Assembly: GCA_944387885.1 (NCBI GenBank)
Contig: CALXGR010000011.1
Coordinates: 1-57,036 of the forward strand
Source of the DNA: an uncultured Clostridia bacterium
Lineage (GTDB): Bacteria; Bacillota; Clostridia; Oscillospirales; Ruminococcaceae
Length of the DNA: 57,036 nt
Reading direction: 5' to 3'
The notes beneath the pieces are model-generated. The model searched no databases, was not told the origin of the DNA, and saw only the letters and a program-made list of their open reading frames with translations. How positions within the stretch are numbered: the first letter of the stretch is position 1; each line of letters starts with the position of its first letter. Of the stretch, positions 948 through 34,853 are shown piece by piece. Both the position numbers and the translations under genes were made by a program.

Positions 948-1450
948 TGTACGACGAGCTGACCCAGGTGGACATCAAGAAAATGCAGGAGGAGCTGGAT
1001 TACCGGATTCTCACCCTCCGGCCCAAGCTGATTGCGGATGTCCAGTTTGCCCGCAGCTACGGAGATCTGAGCGAGAACTTTGAATACAAGGAAGCCAAGC
1101 GGCAGCGGGGCCGGAACGAAAGCCGCATCCGGTACCTGCAGCGGATGATCAAGACCGCCCGGGTGGTGGACCCCACCAACACCGGCCCCGGAGTAGGCCT
1201 GTTTGACACCGTCACCCTCTATCTCCCCGAGGACGAGGAGGAGATGACGGTCCAGCTGGTGACCACCCTGCGGACCAAAGCGGACCAGGGCCGCATCAGC
1301 CGGGAAAGCCCTCTGGGCCGGGCCATCTTCGGGAAGAAGCCAGGCGACCAGGTCCAGGTAAAGGTGAACGACACTGTCTCCTACCCGGTGGTCATCCGGG
1401 CCATCCAGAAGGGCCAGGACGACGAGTCCATGGAAATCGCCAAATACTGA
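947..1450 (+). CDS. GreA/GreB-family transcription elongation factor
   Basis: 167 residues, close to the family norm of about 158. The N-terminal half (about residues 5-75) is a coiled coil with the tip motif GDLSENFEYKEAKRQRG at 39-55. D40 and E43 match the acidic pair that GreA inserts into the RNA polymerase channel to stimulate cleavage of backtracked RNA. The C-terminal half is the FKBP-like domain (SPLGRAIFGKKPGD). It overlaps the upstream Nudix gene by one base and is followed by a strong terminator at 1491-1540. A second, main greA probably exists elsewhere because this copy is in an unusual neighbourhood; that is inference. Confidence 0.88.
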   Translation: MYDELTQVDIKKMQEELDYRILTLRPKLIADVQFARSYGDLSENFEYKEAKRQRGRNESRIRYLQRMIKTARVVDPTNTGPGVGLFDTVTLYLPEDEEEMTVQLVTTLRTKADQGRISRESPLGRAIFGKKPGDQVQVKVNDTVSYPVVIRAIQKGQDDESMEIAKY

Positions 1451-1487
1451 CCCCCAAAAAAGGCAGTTTTAAAACCGAAACGCAATA

Positions 1488-1540
1488 GAAAACCGACCCC
1501 CGAAAGAAGGAGAATCACTTCTCTCGGGGGTCGGTTTTTA
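1488..1540 (+). terminator. rho-independent terminator after the GreA-like gene
   Basis: A near-perfect inverted repeat joins AAAACCGACCCCCGAAAGAAG with its complement around a short loop (GAGAATCA), followed by TTTTT. It ends the operon and marks the left edge of the AT-rich islet. Confidence 0.88.
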
Positions 1541-1616
1541 CATTATTGAGCAATACGCTTTTCAGCCATTTTCCTGCCTGTCTTTCCTATTCAAACACAA
1601 AACTTTTTCGATGGAA

Positions 1617-2129
1617 TCAGCCCGTTGTCAGGAATACCGTGTACATAGCCTGTCCTTCTTCCCAGACGGTCAGAGAACTGTCTTCCGCAGAAAACGCAAA
1701 CTCCTGTTCATCAGTCGACAGCGAGGAAACAGCCTGATAGGTACTTTCTTCCAAAGGTTCCAGACTTCCCTGGTCCAAAGGATAAAATCCGTTCCCGGTT
1801 TCATTGAACAGGTTTGAATCAAAGCCGTAAGTAATATAGTTCAGTCCCGTTTCATCCTGAAAAATCTCAATCTGAACACTGCCGCCTATGTCCATGTAGG
1901 TTCCCAAAATTTCGGAGTTCTCTCCCTTCAAAAGTTCCAGGAGTTCGCTTTGTATTGCTTCTTTTGAAGGGTCTCCTTTGGCATCTGTTTCCAAAGATAA
2001 CTCCAGCTGGTCAATGACATTCTGTTTGACTTCCGCCCTGTTTATATAGACGACCAAAAGTATCAAAAGGACACAGCCCCACCAGATAGCAGACCCAAAC
2101 CGATTGAAAAAATCCAAAACTTTTCTCAT
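1617..2129 (-). CDS. hypothetical single-pass membrane protein
   Basis: 170 residues, family not recognised. One membrane segment lies at about residues 13-29 (GSAIWWGCVLLILLVVYI), preceded by a short basic N-terminus. The remaining 140 residues are acidic and would lie outside the cell under the positive-inside rule. No catalytic motif is evident. The gene lies 39 bases downstream of another small membrane protein gene and shares its promoter at 2457-2486. Base composition is clearly more AT-rich than the flanking genes, and codon use is less biased to G/C at third positions, which suggests acquisition. The start has only a weak ribosome binding site (GAGGCG). Confidence 0.7.
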   Translation of the reverse strand: MRKVLDFFNRFGSAIWWGCVLLILLVVYINRAEVKQNVIDQLELSLETDAKGDPSKEAIQSELLELLKGENSEILGTYMDIGGSVQIEIFQDETGLNYITYGFDSNLFNETGNGFYPLDQGSLEPLEESTYQAVSSLSTDEQEFAFSAEDSSLTVWEEGQAMYTVFLTTG

Positions 2130-2168
2130 TCAACCCATCGCCTCTTGTTTTGAAATCCAGTATATCTT

Positions 2169-2405
2169 TCAGCTTTTTGTTTTGATCGCAATCGCAACAA
2201 CAACCAGGATCAGCACAACCCACCAGAACTGAACGGTCAAGACGGTCAGCACCGAACCTATCAGGGCACTGACAAAAAGTTCTTTCAAAAGACCGTCCAT
2301 CAGACTGAAATAAACAACATTAAATATTTTATGGTAGAGTGTCATCAAAATAACGATCCAACCTATCCACACTGCCACCAACAATACTCCCGCAATAGTT
2401 CCCAT
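2169..2405 (-). CDS. small two- to three-pass membrane protein
   Basis: 78 residues that are almost entirely hydrophobic. Segments lie at about residues 3-24, 43-58 and 60-74, and the protein ends in a basic AIKTKS tail. No family is recognised. The ATG follows GAAAGGAAG at a suitable distance and lies 50 bases downstream of a promoter with both consensus hexamers, so the gene is probably well expressed. It forms a two-gene unit with the 170-residue membrane protein and faces a divergent XRE regulator. That arrangement is common for small regulated accessory modules, but no function can be assigned. Confidence 0.68.
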   Translation of the reverse strand: MGTIAGVLLVAVWIGWIVILMTLYHKIFNVVYFSLMDGLLKELFVSALIGSVLTVLTVQFWWVVLILVVVAIAIKTKS

Positions 2406-2456
2406 ATTTTTCCTTCTTTCTTTTCTTTATTTCGATTTTTTCTGTGGCATGGGTAT

Positions 2457-2486
2457 ATTATATAGCTTTCCAAATCAAGTTGTCAA
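2457..2486 (-). promoter_or_regulatory. sigma-A promoter of the small membrane protein operon
   Basis: On the minus strand TTGACA (2486-2481) and TATAAT (2462-2457) are separated by 18 bases. Both hexamers are perfect. The site lies in the 154-base gap shared with the divergent XRE gene, so that regulator is the natural candidate to control it. Confidence 0.8.
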
Positions 2487-2559
2487 CTATTAGAGTACTA
2501 TTTGTTCACCAACTGCGTACCATAATCCTTCATACTAGAAGCGACAGGAGGGGATTTGC

Positions 2560-2859
2560 TTGGTAGATTTTGGAGAAAGGCTAAGGCTCCTTCGCAAGAG
2601 GGCAAATCTTTCCCAGGAGCAGCTGGCTTCTCGGTTATCCGTTACTAAAAGCGTGGTTTCATCCTATGAAACAGGGATGCGGATGCCCAGTTATTCTGTT
2701 TTGGGAAAGATTGCCCGTGTTTTCAATGTAACCACGGACTACTTGTTGGGGATTGACAACACAGAAACCATGGATATTTCGGGATTGACAGAAGCCCAGA
2801 AAGATATTCTTTCCAGCATAGTGAGTGAATTCAGAAAAAACAGTTCCATGAACGGATAA
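2560..2859 (+). CDS. XRE-family helix-turn-helix regulator
   Basis: 99 residues. Residues 6-60 form a Cro/C1-type HTH: LRLLRKRANLSQEQLASRLS, then VTKSVVSSYETGMRMPSYSVL and VFNVTTDYLLG, the usual signature of small XRE repressors. The tail (about 64-99) is short and could dimerise. Translation starts at TTG 2560 because a strong AGGAGGGG sits at 2547-2554, five bases away; no ATG is suitably placed. It is transcribed divergently from the two small membrane protein genes and probably represses their promoter and its own, which is inference. It is AT-rich like its neighbours. Confidence 0.85.
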   Translation: MVDFGERLRLLRKRANLSQEQLASRLSVTKSVVSSYETGMRMPSYSVLGKIARVFNVTTDYLLGIDNTETMDISGLTEAQKDILSSIVSEFRKNSSMNG

Positions 2860-2881
2860 ACTCCTGCAAATAGCCTTAAAT

Positions 2882-2935
2882 AAAAAAGAGATAGATTTCC
2901 TCCAAATGGAATCCGTCTATCTCTTTTTTGCTATA
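2882..2935 (+). terminator. terminator after the XRE gene
   Basis: A 14-base perfect stem (AAAAAAGAGATAGA with TCTATCTCTTTTTT) around a 20-base loop, ending in a T run. The A-rich 5' arm also makes it usable from the opposite strand. Confidence 0.8.
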
Positions 2936-2936
2936 T

Positions 2937-2980
2937 AAGAGGGACTGCCGCTCAACAAAAGTTGAGCGGCAGTCCCTCTT
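2937..2980 (-). terminator. 20-bp perfect inverted repeat, terminator after the GIY-YIG/GNAT gene
   Basis: Two 20-base arms are perfectly complementary with an AAAA/TTTT tetraloop. It lies 5 bases beyond the stop of the minus-strand gene at 2986 and next to the XRE terminator, so the two converging units are separated by two hairpins in tandem. Confidence 0.8.
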
Positions 2981-2985
2981 ATGTT

Positions 2986-3816
2986 TTAATATTCCGCAAT
3001 GATTTTCCTTACCGCTTCAAGGTCGGGGCTGCGGTTGGGCTCCACGGGGGCCTCTTCCCCTTCCCGGAGCCGGTAACACCAGGTGGACAGTCCCTGCCAG
3101 GCTCCCAGCTTGTACCCGGTCCGGGGACTGCGGCCCTCGCAGTGGTATCCCAGCCGGCGGTGAAGGGCTTCACTGTCCGGGTTGGGGTCGGCCAGTAGGG
3201 CATAGGCGTTCCAGTATCCCTGCATTTCCAGCACCGCCAACAGGGCGGACATGAGCCGGGTCCCCACTCCCTTTCCCCGCACATCGTGGGCGCAGTAGAT
3301 GGTGGTCTCCACATCCCACCGGAAGGCTTCCCGGGGGCGGAAGGGATGGGCGCAGGCATATCCCAGCAGCTTTCCGGTCTGGTCCTTCATCACCAGAAGG
3401 GGAGCTGTTTTCATGGTATCTTCCACCCACTGCCGGTACTCTTGGTCGGTGGGCAGGCTGGTCTGAAAAGTGGCGGTGCTGTTGGACACATACCACCGGT
3501 AAAGCCCGGCGATCTGGGGAGCGTCCTCCACCCCGCCCAGCTGGATGGGAGGGCGGTTCTCCCGGCACCATTCCTGAACCAGGGCCTCCTTCTGCGCCTT
3601 GGGCAGGGCCTTCAGCTGGGCTTCCCTGCGAAGGGCGGCGCTTTTGTCCTCCAGCTGTTCCAGGTAGACCACCCCTTTGGCACCAAAGCCCCGGGTGTAT
3701 TTGGCCCCTTTGCCGGTACGGTGGGCCCGAATCCGGCGGCCCAGGTCATTGGTCCAGCCGGTGTAAAGGCTTCCGTTCCCGCACCGGACCAGGTATACAT
3801 AATTTTTTCCGCTCAT
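2986..3816 (-). CDS. GIY-YIG domain fused to a GNAT acetyltransferase
   Basis: 276 residues from ATG 3816; an upstream in-frame start would overlap the MYG1 gene deeply and is not used. Residues 1-85 are a UPF0213/YhbQ-type GIY-YIG domain: YVYLVRCGNGSLYTGWTND, an R28 region and the catalytic-type Glu in LRREAQLKALPK (E65). Residues about 91-255 are a phosphinothricin-acetyltransferase-like GNAT domain with VEDAPQIAGLYRWYV, the acetyl-CoA loop VRGKGVGTRLMS (179-190) and LHRRLGYHCEGR. It lies 2 bases after the MYG1-family gene, so the two are cotranscribed. The domains are normally separate proteins. The acetyl acceptor and any nucleic acid target are unknown. Confidence 0.85.
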   Translation of the reverse strand: MSGKNYVYLVRCGNGSLYTGWTNDLGRRIRAHRTGKGAKYTRGFGAKGVVYLEQLEDKSAALRREAQLKALPKAQKEALVQEWCRENRPPIQLGGVEDAPQIAGLYRWYVSNSTATFQTSLPTDQEYRQWVEDTMKTAPLLVMKDQTGKLLGYACAHPFRPREAFRWDVETTIYCAHDVRGKGVGTRLMSALLAVLEMQGYWNAYALLADPNPDSEALHRRLGYHCEGRSPRTGYKLGAWQGLSTWCYRLREGEEAPVEPNRSPDLEAVRKIIAEY

Positions 3817-30885: not shown

Positions 30886-32070
30886 TTAGAAGTAGGAACG
30901 AATCTGGAACTTATCCCCGGAGGGCTTTTCCTCCACCACCAGTTTTTCGTGGTTGAAGTCAAAGTGGACTCCCAGGCAGTCGTCGGCGTTCCGGGTCAGC
31001 CGGAGCAGTTCCTCCACCCGGCGGGTCTCCTCCTTTGTGTAGAACAGGTAGCTGACACCCTGGCGCTTGGCCCGGCCGGTACGGCCGATCCGGTGGGTGT
31101 AATACTCGTTGCTGCCGGGAACGTCATAGTTGAAGACCGCTTCCACGTCCTCCACGTCGATTCCCCGGGCGGCCACGTCGGTGGCTACCAGGATGGCGAT
31201 TTTTCCCTCCCGGAAGGCAGCCATGATTTTGTTCCGCTCTGCCTGGCTCAGGTCTCCGTGGAGGCAGTCTGCCCGGAAGTTGAGCCGAATCAGCTGGTTG
31301 GCCAGGGTGGCGGTGGTCTGCTTGGTGTTGCAGAACACCATGACCCGCTTGTACCCTTCGGTGATCATGATCTGTGCCATGTCGGACAGCTTGTCCCGTC
31401 CGGTGGTCAGCAGTTTATACTGGGTGATTTTGGGGCTGGATTCCAGCACCGGTTCCACATGGACCTCGGCGGCGTCCTTCTGGTAGAGCCAGCCAATGTC
31501 CATGACCTCCCGGCTGATGGTGGCGCTGAACATGGAGAGGGTCTTCCGGTTCTTCATCAGGTCGATGATATGCCGCACGTCCTTGTAAAAGCCCATATTC
31601 AGCATTTCGTCCGCCTCGTCCAGCACCACGGTGGTGACCCCGGACAGGTCAATGCTTCTGTGCCGGTAATGGTCCATGAGCCGGCCGGGAGTGGCTACCA
31701 CGATCTGGCAGCCCTTCTTCAGCTGGTCGGCCTGTTTCTGCATATTGGCACCGCCATAAACGCAGGCGATACGGATCTCCGGGATAAACTGAGCCAGTTC
31801 CCGCAGCTCCTGGGCAATCTGCTGGGCCAGTTCCCGGGTGGGGGCCAGGATGACACTCTGGGGCCGGGTGGACTGGCGGTCGGTATGTTCCACAATGGGG
31901 ATTCCGAAGGCGCAGGTCTTGCCGGTGCCGGTGGGGGCCTTGGCGATCATGTCGTGGCCCTCCATCATAAGGGGGATGGCCTTTTCCTGAACCTCGGTCA
32001 TCTCCACAAACCCCATCTTTTCCACCGCCTGGTGAATTTCGGGGCAAACATTCAGTTCACTGTACAGCAT
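30886..32070 (-). CDS. DEAD-box ATP-dependent RNA helicase
   Basis: 394 residues from ATG 32070; earlier in-frame starts lack a site. All core motifs are present: Q-motif region MTEVQEKAIP, motif I APTGTGKT, Ia PTRELAQQ, GG, TPGRL, motif II DEAD (VVLDEADEML), III SAT, IV VMVFCNTK, V ATDVAARGID and VI HRIGRTGRA. It has only the two RecA domains plus a short tail (FDFNHEKLVVEEKPSG), with no RNA-binding extension as in DbpA or CsdA. It probably aids mRNA decay or ribosome assembly. It has its own promoter and lies 172 bases after the GTPase/nuclease fusion, on the same strand. Confidence 0.92.
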   Translation of the reverse strand: MLYSELNVCPEIHQAVEKMGFVEMTEVQEKAIPLMMEGHDMIAKAPTGTGKTCAFGIPIVEHTDRQSTRPQSVILAPTRELAQQIAQELRELAQFIPEIRIACVYGGANMQKQADQLKKGCQIVVATPGRLMDHYRHRSIDLSGVTTVVLDEADEMLNMGFYKDVRHIIDLMKNRKTLSMFSATISREVMDIGWLYQKDAAEVHVEPVLESSPKITQYKLLTTGRDKLSDMAQIMITEGYKRVMVFCNTKQTTATLANQLIRLNFRADCLHGDLSQAERNKIMAAFREGKIAILVATDVAARGIDVEDVEAVFNYDVPGSNEYYTHRIGRTGRAKRQGVSYLFYTKEETRRVEELLRLTRNADDCLGVHFDFNHEKLVVEEKPSGDKFQIRSYF

Positions 32071-32151
32071 ATTTTTGGTTCCAATCCTTTTCCGGGGCCC
32101 GGCCCGGCAGGCTGTCCCCTCCATTTTATAAAATTCCGCAATACAGGGCTT

Positions 32152-32242: not shown

Positions 32243-34801
32243 TTACCCCCGCCGCTGGTTGTGTTCCTCTATGATGCGGGAGATTTCGTCCTGGGTGGCG
32301 TTCATTTCCTGGCGGAGCATCCCGGCGCTCATCCGGAGGGCTCCCGCTCCCAGGATGATGGCCTGTTCCGCCCCGTCGCTGGTGGCTACCCGGACCCGGT
32401 ACTTTTTCCCGATCTGGTAGGTGGTGCGCTCGATGTAGCTGTCGGCGGTCTCCGCCTCCTTGGTGTAGATCACATAGAGCCCTCCATGCTTTTCCACCGC
32501 CCCGGTTCCTCCCGGCACCCGGTAGGCGTCAAAGACCAGAATGACCCCGATTTTCTTGTACCCCTGATAGTTGGCCATAAGATGGATGAGGGCATCCCGG
32601 GCACCGGCCAGGTTGGTCCGGGCCAGGGCGTTCAGGTCCTCCCAGGCGAAGATAATATTGTACCCGTCCACCAGGAGATATTCCCCGTCCAAAGGCTGCC
32701 AGGGGATGTTATCCGGCAGTTCCTGCCGGGCATTTCCCGCCTGACGGCTGGGCAGGTCGGGGCGGCTGCTCCGCCGGTAGTTGGCATTTTCAAAGATGGC
32801 TTCCAGCTCCCGGTCGGTGGCAGGGCCGGTGGAACGAGTCCGGGGAGCGTTTTTTTCCTCCTGGGGCAGGCCCAGCCGAAGGGTCCCCAGGTGGGCGTGA
32901 GCCGGGACCTGGTCCCAGGCCACCGTATACCCGGCCCCATGGCTGCAGAATACGCTGTCCGGGGTGTTTTCCAAATCGGCGGTGGGATTGTACCCTATTT
33001 CCTCCACCACCTCCTGGGTGTTATGGCAGGGGGCATACCCGGCCACGGTGCAGGAGATGCGTCCCAGTCCCTTGGTGTAAGCGGCCAGGGTCCGGCTGTA
33101 TTCCCCCATGGTGGCCACGGGGCAGGTCCCGGTCAGGATGGCGGTCTCCCCCTGGTCCAGGGGCGGGTCAAAGGCTGCCCCCATCTGCTGCAAATCGGTC
33201 ATGGCCCGGCCCAGGTTCTGGGTGGGCACCTGGAGGGTATACTGATAGATCGGCTCCAGCAGGATGCTCCGGGCCTGCATCAGCCCCTGGCGGACCGCCC
33301 GGTAGGTGGCCTGGCGGAAATCTCCCCCCTCGGTGTGTTTCAGGTGGGCACGGCCTGCCACCAGGGTGATTTTCATATCGGTGATGGGGCTTCCGGTCAG
33401 GACTCCCAGGTGCTTCTTTTCTTCCAGATGGGTGAGGACCAGGTTCTGCCAGTTGGGGGCCAGCTGGTCGGTGGAGACCTGCGTCCCAAATTTCAGGCCG
33501 CTGCCCCGCTCCCCCGGTTCCAGGAGCAGGTGGACCTCCGCATAATGGCGGAGGGGCTCAAAGTGACCTATTCCCTCTACCGGAGCGGCTATGGTCTCCC
33601 GGTAGAGGATGGTTCCCTGGCCGAAAGCCACATCCAGGTCCCACCGGGCCTTGATCTCCTGGGTCAGGACTTCCAGCTGGACCGGGCCCATGACCCGCAC
33701 CTCCAGCTGCCGGGTCCGGGGCTGCCAGACCAAAGCCAGGGTGGGGTCTTCCTCCTCCAGCTCTTTCAGCTTTGGATACCACTGGCCCGGGTCCTGCTCC
33801 AGGGGCAGGATCATCTGGTACCCCAGCACCGGGGTGAGGGCCGGGGCGGGAGCGTCAGGCTGGATGCCCAGACCCAGTCCCGGGCAGGTGTGGGTCAGGC
33901 CGGTGACCGCCACCACCATTCCCTTCTCCGCCTGGTTCACCGGGGTATATTTGGCACCGTCGCAGACCCGTATCTGGTCCACCTTCTCCGCCCAGGGCTG
34001 GGGACGGCTGGACTGGAGCAGGGTCTTGGGCTCCAGGCTGCCTCCGGTGATCTTCATATGGGTGAGCCGGTTTCCCGCCGGGTCCCGGCTGATTTTATAC
34101 ACCATGGCTCCGAAGGCTTCCGGGTAGGCAGGGGTGCGGGTATATTCCTCCAATCCCTGGACCAGCCGGTCCACTCCCTCCATCCGGAGGGCGGAACCAA
34201 AGTAGCAGGGGAACACCTTCCGCTGTGCAATCAGGTCGGTGATCTGGTCCTGGGTAAAGGGCAGGTCGGACAGATACTGTTCCATCAAGTCCTCTCCCAA
34301 AAGGGCCAGCTGTTCCCCCAGCTGGGCTCCCTCCCCGAAATCCAGGCAGGCAGGGGAAAGTTTTTCCTGCAGTTCTTTCAGAAGAGCCTGCCGGTCTGCC
34401 CCGGGCAGGTCCATTTTATTTACAAAGAGGAACACCGGCACCCCCTGCCGTTCCAGCAGCTTCCAGAGGGTGCGGGTATGGGCCTGGACTCCGTCGGTTC
34501 CAGAGATGACCAGGATGGCATAATCCAGCACCTGAAGAGTCCGCTCCGCTTCGGGGCCGAAATCCAGATGGCCGGGGGTGTCCACCAGCTGCACCCTGGT
34601 TTCCCCCAGCTGGAAATTGGCCTGTTTGGAGAAGATGGTGATTCCCCGCTGCCGTTCCAGGGGATGGGTATCCAGGTGGGCATCCCCATGATCTACCCTT
34701 CCCAGCTGCCGGATGGCGCCCCCTGTATAGAGCAGGGCCTCGGAAAGGGTGGTCTTGCCTGCGTCCACATGGGCCAGAATCCCTACCACCAGCTGCTTCA
34801 T
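32243..34801 (-). CDS. TetM-like ribosomal-protection GTPase fused to a YacP/Rae1-type NYN nuclease
   Basis: 852 residues from ATG 34801, with AAGGAGGAA upstream. Residues 1-650 follow the TetM/EF-G plan: P-loop AHVDAGKTT (10-18), switch I LERQRGITI (48-56), DTPGHLDF (74-81), NKMD (128-131), then domains II-V with LYRETIAAPVEGIGHF and a late PDSVFCSHGAGYTVAW stretch like other Tet-type C-termini. A linker (651-704) leads to a complete NYN_YacP domain (705-852): LLVDGYNIIFAW (D712), LVFDAYR (D758), YTKEAETAD (E784, D787), ATSD (D809), all acidic catalytic-type positions kept. Rae1 of Bacillus cuts mRNA in the ribosomal A site, which TetM also occupies. The function of the fusion is inferred. 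Confidence 0.9.
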   Translation of the reverse strand: MKQLVVGILAHVDAGKTTLSEALLYTGGAIRQLGRVDHGDAHLDTHPLERQRGITIFSKQANFQLGETRVQLVDTPGHLDFGPEAERTLQVLDYAILVISGTDGVQAHTRTLWKLLERQGVPVFLFVNKMDLPGADRQALLKELQEKLSPACLDFGEGAQLGEQLALLGEDLMEQYLSDLPFTQDQITDLIAQRKVFPCYFGSALRMEGVDRLVQGLEEYTRTPAYPEAFGAMVYKISRDPAGNRLTHMKITGGSLEPKTLLQSSRPQPWAEKVDQIRVCDGAKYTPVNQAEKGMVVAVTGLTHTCPGLGLGIQPDAPAPALTPVLGYQMILPLEQDPGQWYPKLKELEEEDPTLALVWQPRTRQLEVRVMGPVQLEVLTQEIKARWDLDVAFGQGTILYRETIAAPVEGIGHFEPLRHYAEVHLLLEPGERGSGLKFGTQVSTDQLAPNWQNLVLTHLEEKKHLGVLTGSPITDMKITLVAGRAHLKHTEGGDFRQATYRAVRQGLMQARSILLEPIYQYTLQVPTQNLGRAMTDLQQMGAAFDPPLDQGETAILTGTCPVATMGEYSRTLAAYTKGLGRISCTVAGYAPCHNTQEVVEEIGYNPTADLENTPDSVFCSHGAGYTVAWDQVPAHAHLGTLRLGLPQEEKNAPRTRSTGPATDRELEAIFENANYRRSSRPDLPSRQAGNARQELPDNIPWQPLDGEYLLVDGYNIIFAWEDLNALARTNLAGARDALIHLMANYQGYKKIGVILVFDAYRVPGGTGAVEKHGGLYVIYTKEAETADSYIERTTYQIGKKYRVRVATSDGAEQAIILGAGALRMSAGMLRQEMNATQDEISRIIEEHNQRRG

Positions 34802-34816
34802 GGAAATTTCCTCCTT

Positions 34817-34842
34817 AAAAAAGGGCGCACCTTGGTGCGCCC
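34817..34842 (-). terminator. terminator between the FadR-type regulator and the GTPase/nuclease gene
   Basis: On the minus strand GGGCGCAC-CAAG-GTGCGCCC is followed by TTTTTT. The T-run ends 15 bases before ATG 34801, right at the ribosome binding site of the fusion gene, so the gene lies behind a terminator. Confidence 0.85.
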
Positions 34843-34853
34843 CTGTCTTGGGT

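Follow-up and report, generated by a model that had tools for sequence, protein, structure and literature searches.

Which task could be served by a single bacterial protein that joins a translational GTPase resembling EF-G and TetM to a nuclease domain of the YacP (Rae1) type? Such a protein is encoded in the window analysed here, by which we mean the whole stretch of 57,036 nucleotides (GenBank assembly GCA_944387885.1, contig CALXGR010000011.1) from an uncultured Clostridia bacterium of the family Ruminococcaceae. In Bacillus subtilis, Rae1 is about 170 residues long and exists as a free protein. Passages in the literature state (PMC12320835) or propose (PMC10100781) that the target of Rae1 is mRNA in the A site of the ribosome, and a passage of PMC8266666 also describes it as acting there. 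We put the probability at roughly one half that the fused chain is the lineage's own form of this ribosome-associated mRNA nuclease, in which GTP-dependent docking would bring the nuclease to the A-site mRNA.

The architecture is real, widespread but patchy, and already published: in Atkinson 2015 (PMC4342817), Tet proteins of ten clostridiales species are reported to carry a YacP-like NYN domain and are suggested to resist antibiotics via RNase activity. Our literature search found only that paper on the fusion, which the primary Rae1 papers may describe too, and no biochemistry on the fused protein. New are the mutual exclusion of fused and free YacP in 243 genomes, a GTPase clade distinct from Tet with different tip loops, and purifying selection combined with a disordered tether, with no mobile element or conserved neighbour found.

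The gene lies at the coordinates first given, on the minus strand, from an ATG at 34801 down to 32243, and encodes 852 amino acids plus a stop; the plus-strand reading of 32243..34801 yields no Pfam match. Its GC content is 0.633 vs 0.589 for the window. The features of the gene and its product are as follows.

32243..34801, minus strand: whole fused gene (open reading frame, Pfam, ribosome-binding site)
34810..34816, minus strand: ribosome-binding site AAGGAGG, eight bases before the ATG at 34801 (sequence)
34139..34792, minus strand: G domain, residues 4-221 (GTP_EFTU; Pfam, G motifs present)
33893..34114, minus strand: EF-G domain II, residues 230-303 (Pfam 21.4 bits, below the cut-off of 27; within the EF-G fold alignment of residues 1-605)
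33620..33769, minus strand: EF-G domain III, residues 345-394 (EFG_III; Pfam)
33272..33613, minus strand: EF-G domain IV, residues 397-510 (EFG_IV; Pfam), the most conserved domain in 104 aligned fusions
33536..33574, minus strand: domain IV tip loop I, residues 410-422, with the subfamily signature GHFEPLRHYAE (sequence comparison)
33314..33355, minus strand: domain IV tip loop III, residues 483-496, signature KHTEGGDFR replacing the TetM tip (sequence comparison)
33017..33262, minus strand: EF-G domain V, residues 514-595 (EFG_C; Pfam)
32873..33007, minus strand: C-terminal extension, residues 599-643 (about), SVFCxxG...VxW, common to nuclease-free relatives and absent from the Tet-type rows compared
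32690..32872, minus strand: tether, residues 644-704, disordered apart from a short helix predicted at 663-673 (predicted structure)
32255..32677, minus strand: NYN_YacP (Rae1) nuclease domain, residues 709-849 (Pfam; alignment to B. subtilis YacP)

The first-pass annotation had described a complete EF-G-like GTPase followed by an intact NYN_YacP domain, and had named a domain search, a collection of homologues and a structure prediction as checks; all three bear out this architecture. Pfam recovers the G domain and EF-G domains III, IV and V above their cut-offs and, alone of EF-G, domain II below its own. The G motifs are present (H11, D13, K16 and T17; RGIT at 52-55; DTPGH at 74-78; N128, K129 and D131), and together with domains II to V in the EF-G fold they place the protein in the EF-G/EF-2-type superfamily, domain II falling under the Pfam cut-off yet inside the part aligned to EF-G. 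The protein is not EF-G proper, as it scores 258.7 bits against a cut-off of 659.4 with NCBIfam TIGR00484; it is 25% identical to the EF-G of its own host genome, its tip loops are unlike those of EF-G, and a NYN domain has been added.

The predicted structure, computed from a 67-row alignment (mean pLDDT 79.5, pTM 0.58), contains a folded NYN domain, and structure comparison (Foldseek and VIA) extends the EF-G fold over residues 1-605, in rows that cover that part only and not the NYN domain. Residues 644-704 have a pLDDT below 50 and are predicted to be flexible. Instead of the 50-residue linker assumed at first, about 113 residues thus separate the NYN domain from domain V, comprising the conserved C-terminal extension (about 599-643) and the disordered tether (644-704), the length of which differs among fusions by a crude measure. 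Within the tether (window 32690-32872, minus strand) many fusions carry a short motif like ELQAIFERTYG, a loose pattern of which fits 69/104; it could be a docking motif.

The NYN_YacP domain (PF05991) scores 158.6 bits, the cut-off being 24.6, and aligns to B. subtilis YacP/Rae1 (PDB 5mq8/5mq9) with an E value of 4e-24. The acidic residues correspond one to one: D712, D758, E784, D787 and D809 match D7, D53, E78, D81 and D104 of the B. subtilis protein, as counted by hand on the alignment. With a domain above the cut-off and its acidic residues kept, the protein belongs to the Rae1/YacP family; Rae1 is, however, a free protein (PDB chain of 181 residues), whereas here the same domain forms the C-terminus of a translational GTPase. 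A full-length chain was obtained from 104 of 111 loci, the window's own copies being counted once, so that the alignment comprises the window and 103 others, some of the rows being non-independent (L004 and L032 represent the same gene). The acidic residues are not lost in these chains: D712, D758, D787 and D809 are invariant (104/104), and E784 is kept in 102/104, with Q in the other two. At the E784 position of a smaller set, Q occurs in 3/33 fused domains and Q or K in 3/22 free YacP proteins. The mean frequency of the top residue in fusions is 0.84 for domain IV, 0.73 for the G domain and 0.71 for the NYN domain. Against L003 and L032 the GTPase has dN/dS ratios of 0.13 and 0.16 and the NYN domain has ratios of 0.014 and 0.14, which indicates that both halves are under purifying selection.

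In the order-level sample, NYN_YacP is found in 40/117 genomes, all 40 times in frames of at least 833 aa. Among 243 genomes sampled at class level, 164 carry the domain, 88 fused and 76 free, and none holds both forms above the family cut-off; 79/243 have neither. The 88 fused cases comprise 82 in a single frame of more than 800 aa with the GTPase and six split ones (G193, G211, G286, G290, G291 and G319), which are cut by contig ends or frame breaks and have NYN frames of 295-734 aa; the 76 free proteins lie in frames of 160-216 aa. Three genomes have two NYN_YacP matches, one of which is in each case a fragment at about 21 bits, below the cut-off. The exclusion of fused and free forms has a Fisher p of 1.5e-19 over the 243 genomes, a value uncorrected for kinship. 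In a phylum-level sample a match occurs in 167/299 genomes, none with both forms among the rows listed, and the host genome (85% complete) has one NYN_YacP, the fused one. This mutual exclusion of fused and free YacP suggests that the fused protein takes the place of Rae1 in its genomes. The either/or pattern may be due in part to shared ancestry; at least five families (f41, f42, f45, f46 and f65) hold both states, and among the eight free-YacP genomes of these mixed families a GTPase of this subfamily is found in one only (G335).

The fusion is not rare, as at least the 120 best of the 7984 clusters found all show PF05991. It is nevertheless patchy at close range, being lacking in one genome (G129) and present in two others of the same genus (G017 and G150). 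Together with the 79/243 genomes that have neither form, this absence within a genus means that the function is dispensable.

By its sequence tree the GTPase half forms a separate clade, the sister of which lacks the nuclease and occurs in Clostridium. In a tree of 69 rows (a quick search with 24/66 branches starred and one very long EF-G row), 40 fused rows form one side of a branch with 98% SH-aLRT support, and the corresponding values are 89 for 18 nuclease-free rows and 99 for 10 Tet-type rows. Among the 27 rows shown, tip loop I (GH[FY]EPL[RK]HYAE) and the SVFC C-terminal extension are common to fused and nuclease-free proteins, as is tip loop III (KHTEGGDF) with few exceptions, e.g., L167; the loops of Tet-type rows are instead of the YYSPVSTPADF or HTHPMDF-like kind, and EF-G has another loop. 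Unlike the fusion, the nuclease-free proteins are about 650 aa long and show no NYN domain in the at least 120 clusters listed, and their records in Clostridium genomes bear clashing names (GTP-binding protein, elongation factor G, TetO, TetM family).

The NYN domains (33 fused and 22 free rows) give a less uniform tree: 32 fused domains group together, with two free proteins inside (L135 of G349 and L138 of G335) and one fused domain outside. The outlier, L126 (G326, 1013-3535, plus strand), is a divergent fusion on a long branch, the NYN domain of which groups with free YacP; it is possibly a second, independent fusion, and a single fused NYN clade is not rejected by a topology test (AU p 0.455). 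The genomes of L135 and L138 carry a nuclease-free GTPase, and in both the nuclease has possibly been released from a fusion.

For the reading as a ribosome-directed Rae1 we count the domains and their residues, the either/or distribution, purifying selection, the conservation of domain IV, the EF-G fold, the flexible tether and tmRNA/SmpB. Binding to the ribosomal A site would follow by analogy with EF-G and TetM, and cutting of mRNA there by analogy with Rae1; the order of events, the use of GTP and the coupling of the two activities are hypothetical. The EF-G-type half would bind ribosomes whose A site is empty or blocked; the GTP form would enter that site, where its tip (with the GHFEPLRHYAE and KHTEGGDFR loops) might sense or clear the decoding centre. 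The tethered NYN domain, held nearby by roughly 60 residues, would then cut the A-site mRNA, probably once GTP has been hydrolysed and domain IV has withdrawn, because domain IV and the nuclease should not fit the decoding centre together. The host genome encodes both tmRNA and SmpB, which could rescue the ribosome left on the cut message. The first-pass annotation's proposal, a GTP-driven factor carrying a Rae1-type nuclease to the ribosome, thus fits the domain make-up and is supported by the either/or distribution; docking, cleavage and coupling are what we infer.

Eukaryotic no-go decay employs a comparable pair, Dom34/Hbs1 with Cue2 or NONU-1, in which one stalled ribosome is attended by both a translational GTPase and an A-site nuclease; these are, however, separate and unrelated eukaryotic proteins, whereas the fusion is a single chain built from other GTPase and nuclease families. 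A bolder version of the favoured reading, which we advance tentatively and at somewhat less than even odds, is a one-protein no-go decay machine: a GTPase that is neither EF-G nor Tet would sense blocked ribosomes via its own tip and fire a built-in Rae1, and it would have displaced free Rae1 in many lineages of Clostridia. If true, bacteria would couple the engagement of ribosomes by a GTPase to mRNA cleavage within one molecule, and locking the GTPase by means of GTP analogues would offer a tractable way to trap a Rae1-type nuclease on its ribosome.

Counted against a ribosome-directed Rae1 are its patchy occurrence (40/117 genomes of the order sample, 88/243 of the class sample, with no YacP in 79/243), the variable length of the tether, the crowding of domain IV and NYN domain in the decoding centre, and the separate existence of both halves. 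The last point leads to the main rival, a serious one that we nonetheless hold to be unlikely: the chain would carry two independent activities, and the fusion would tie only their expression or location. A per-genome search found nuclease-free relatives of the GTPase in 18/155 fusion-lacking genomes (not the same set as the 18 nuclease-free rows of the tree), and 6/18 of these genomes are without any YacP. Conversely, 64/76 free-YacP genomes yielded no GTPase of this subfamily when four candidates per genome were scored at E values up to 1e-40, which means that the nuclease does not need the GTPase. The free halves co-occur in 12/18 genomes with a nuclease-free GTPase vs 8.8 expected (p 0.14, not significant), and a required pair of free halves was therefore rejected, there being no evidence of coupling in these counts; as nuclease-free relatives also occur without any YacP, the GTPase performs a task that is independent of the nuclease. 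The disordered, variable tether likewise suits two independent activities, as do L135 and L138, which lie within the group of fused NYN domains and look as though set free again. Against such independence stands the single clade of fused GTPases (98% SH-aLRT in the quick search), which implies that the fusion was kept across many families.

Next in order comes the proposal of Atkinson 2015, a tetracycline-resistance protein with an added RNase, which we regard as improbable. It has the merit of being in print (PMC4342817), and the protein is homologous to TetO and TetM (E 4e-71 and 1e-69). Tet(M), Tet(O) and Tet(W) have the same EF-G-type order of domains at about 30% identity, and identity to named Tet proteins is 28-31%. 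The fused protein nonetheless misses the curated Tet cut-offs, with 405.7 bits vs 775 for the equivalog model NF012153 and 261.5 vs 1100 for the family model NF033148, whereas two control proteins pass both (L152 with 819.2/1284.7 and L153 with 852.6/1308.5); L155, from another branch of the Tet-type rows, fails with 532.9. A passage of Atkinson 2015 (PMC4342817) names the tip loops of Tet proteins as what dislodges tetracycline, and at the place of the TetM-type domain IV loop III (YSPVST region) the fused protein has AHLKHTEGG. The C-terminal extension differs as well, and the GTPase tree sets the fusion apart from the 10 Tet-type rows. Some genomes (G015 and G049) hold the fusion alongside a Tet-type gene, that of G049 being L152. 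Moreover, plasmid records gave 1383 matches, only 2/1383 of which cover 80% of the query, and among the 30 listed one is of the fused type (Monoglobus).

The resistance system envisaged in the first-pass annotation is thus not supported, and its expectation that automatic labels would name tetracycline resistance only was too narrow, as some sources give 'translation factor GTPase family protein'. The tetracycline-resistance label of the fusion is probably wrong. This matters for resistance-gene surveys, in which a large clostridial gene family, partly labelled as tetracycline resistance, would probably be another kind of translation factor. At one further locus (L164, genome G014) the fused gene is divided, a Tet-type gene lying between its two parts, and an element with this Tet-type gene seems to have entered the fused gene.

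It also appears quite improbable that the protein is a factor for ribosome assembly or for rRNA or tRNA processing, in which the GTPase would check ribosomes while the NYN domain trims RNA: the original proposal for the YacP-like NYN domain was a role in the maturation of rRNA and tRNA, as cited in a passage of Atkinson 2015 (PMC4342817), but the closest studied relative, Rae1, acts on A-site mRNA according to the passages introduced above (PMC10100781, PMC12320835, PMC8266666). Least credible is an anti-phage or toxin-type module that would cut mRNA when translation is disturbed, for which A-site nucleases of the RelE kind (a passage of PMC12320835) and the patchy distribution provide an opening, but against which stand the lack of any PADLOC-DB family matching the fused protein at E up to 0.001, the lack of a conserved neighbour or antitoxin at the loci compared, and a nearest congener that keeps the gene order apart from one gene, DUF3160, which was not found there. 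The first idea of a defence system accordingly lacks support, the patchy distribution leaving some room for it.

No neighbour was found to be conserved beyond the genus. Clustering of neighbours at 74/80 named-genome loci revealed no gene family in more than 5 loci, with the reservation that frames were picked by length, that antisense frames may hide some genes and that the fused gene itself was missed in 5 loci. When nine window neighbours were compared by tblastn with 81 loci, the GntR gene matched in 1, that of a congener, and the DEAD helicase in 4, including the congeners L169 and L170, while an ABC protein matched in 19, which may be paralogues; a conserved operon was therefore rejected. 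The DEAD-box RNA helicase (window 30886-32124, minus strand) lies just 3' of the fused gene on the same strand, and is found in both congeners examined and in 2/79 other loci; its 78 PADLOC matches look like general helicase similarity.

Phage records offer little more: of 114 that match, two faecal, unannotated ones cover the fused protein, another record has a place at 80-90% identity, and PHROG yields a single match, to a translation elongation factor family. On the viral contigs L181 and L182 a relative of the GTPase with KHTEGGD sits at the very contig end, with no DGYN motif in the three forward frames of the piece, and is perhaps host flank. The plasmid, phage-record and viral-contig matches were taken as no sign of a phage or plasmid origin, which was rejected.

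Immediately upstream of the fused gene, a terminator-like hairpin with a T run (window 34817-34843, minus strand) ends directly before the ribosome-binding site, with no room for a promoter after it. Such hairpins lie within range in 9/75 fusion upstream regions vs 33/649 control frames, and only that of the window abuts the ribosome-binding site, the other eight ending 67-89 bases before the start region; an attenuator as a family trait was thus rejected. In the congener G002 the stretch from the GntR stop to the ATG of the fused gene is identical though the coding DNA differs, and in these two genomes only, the hairpin is a possible attenuator.
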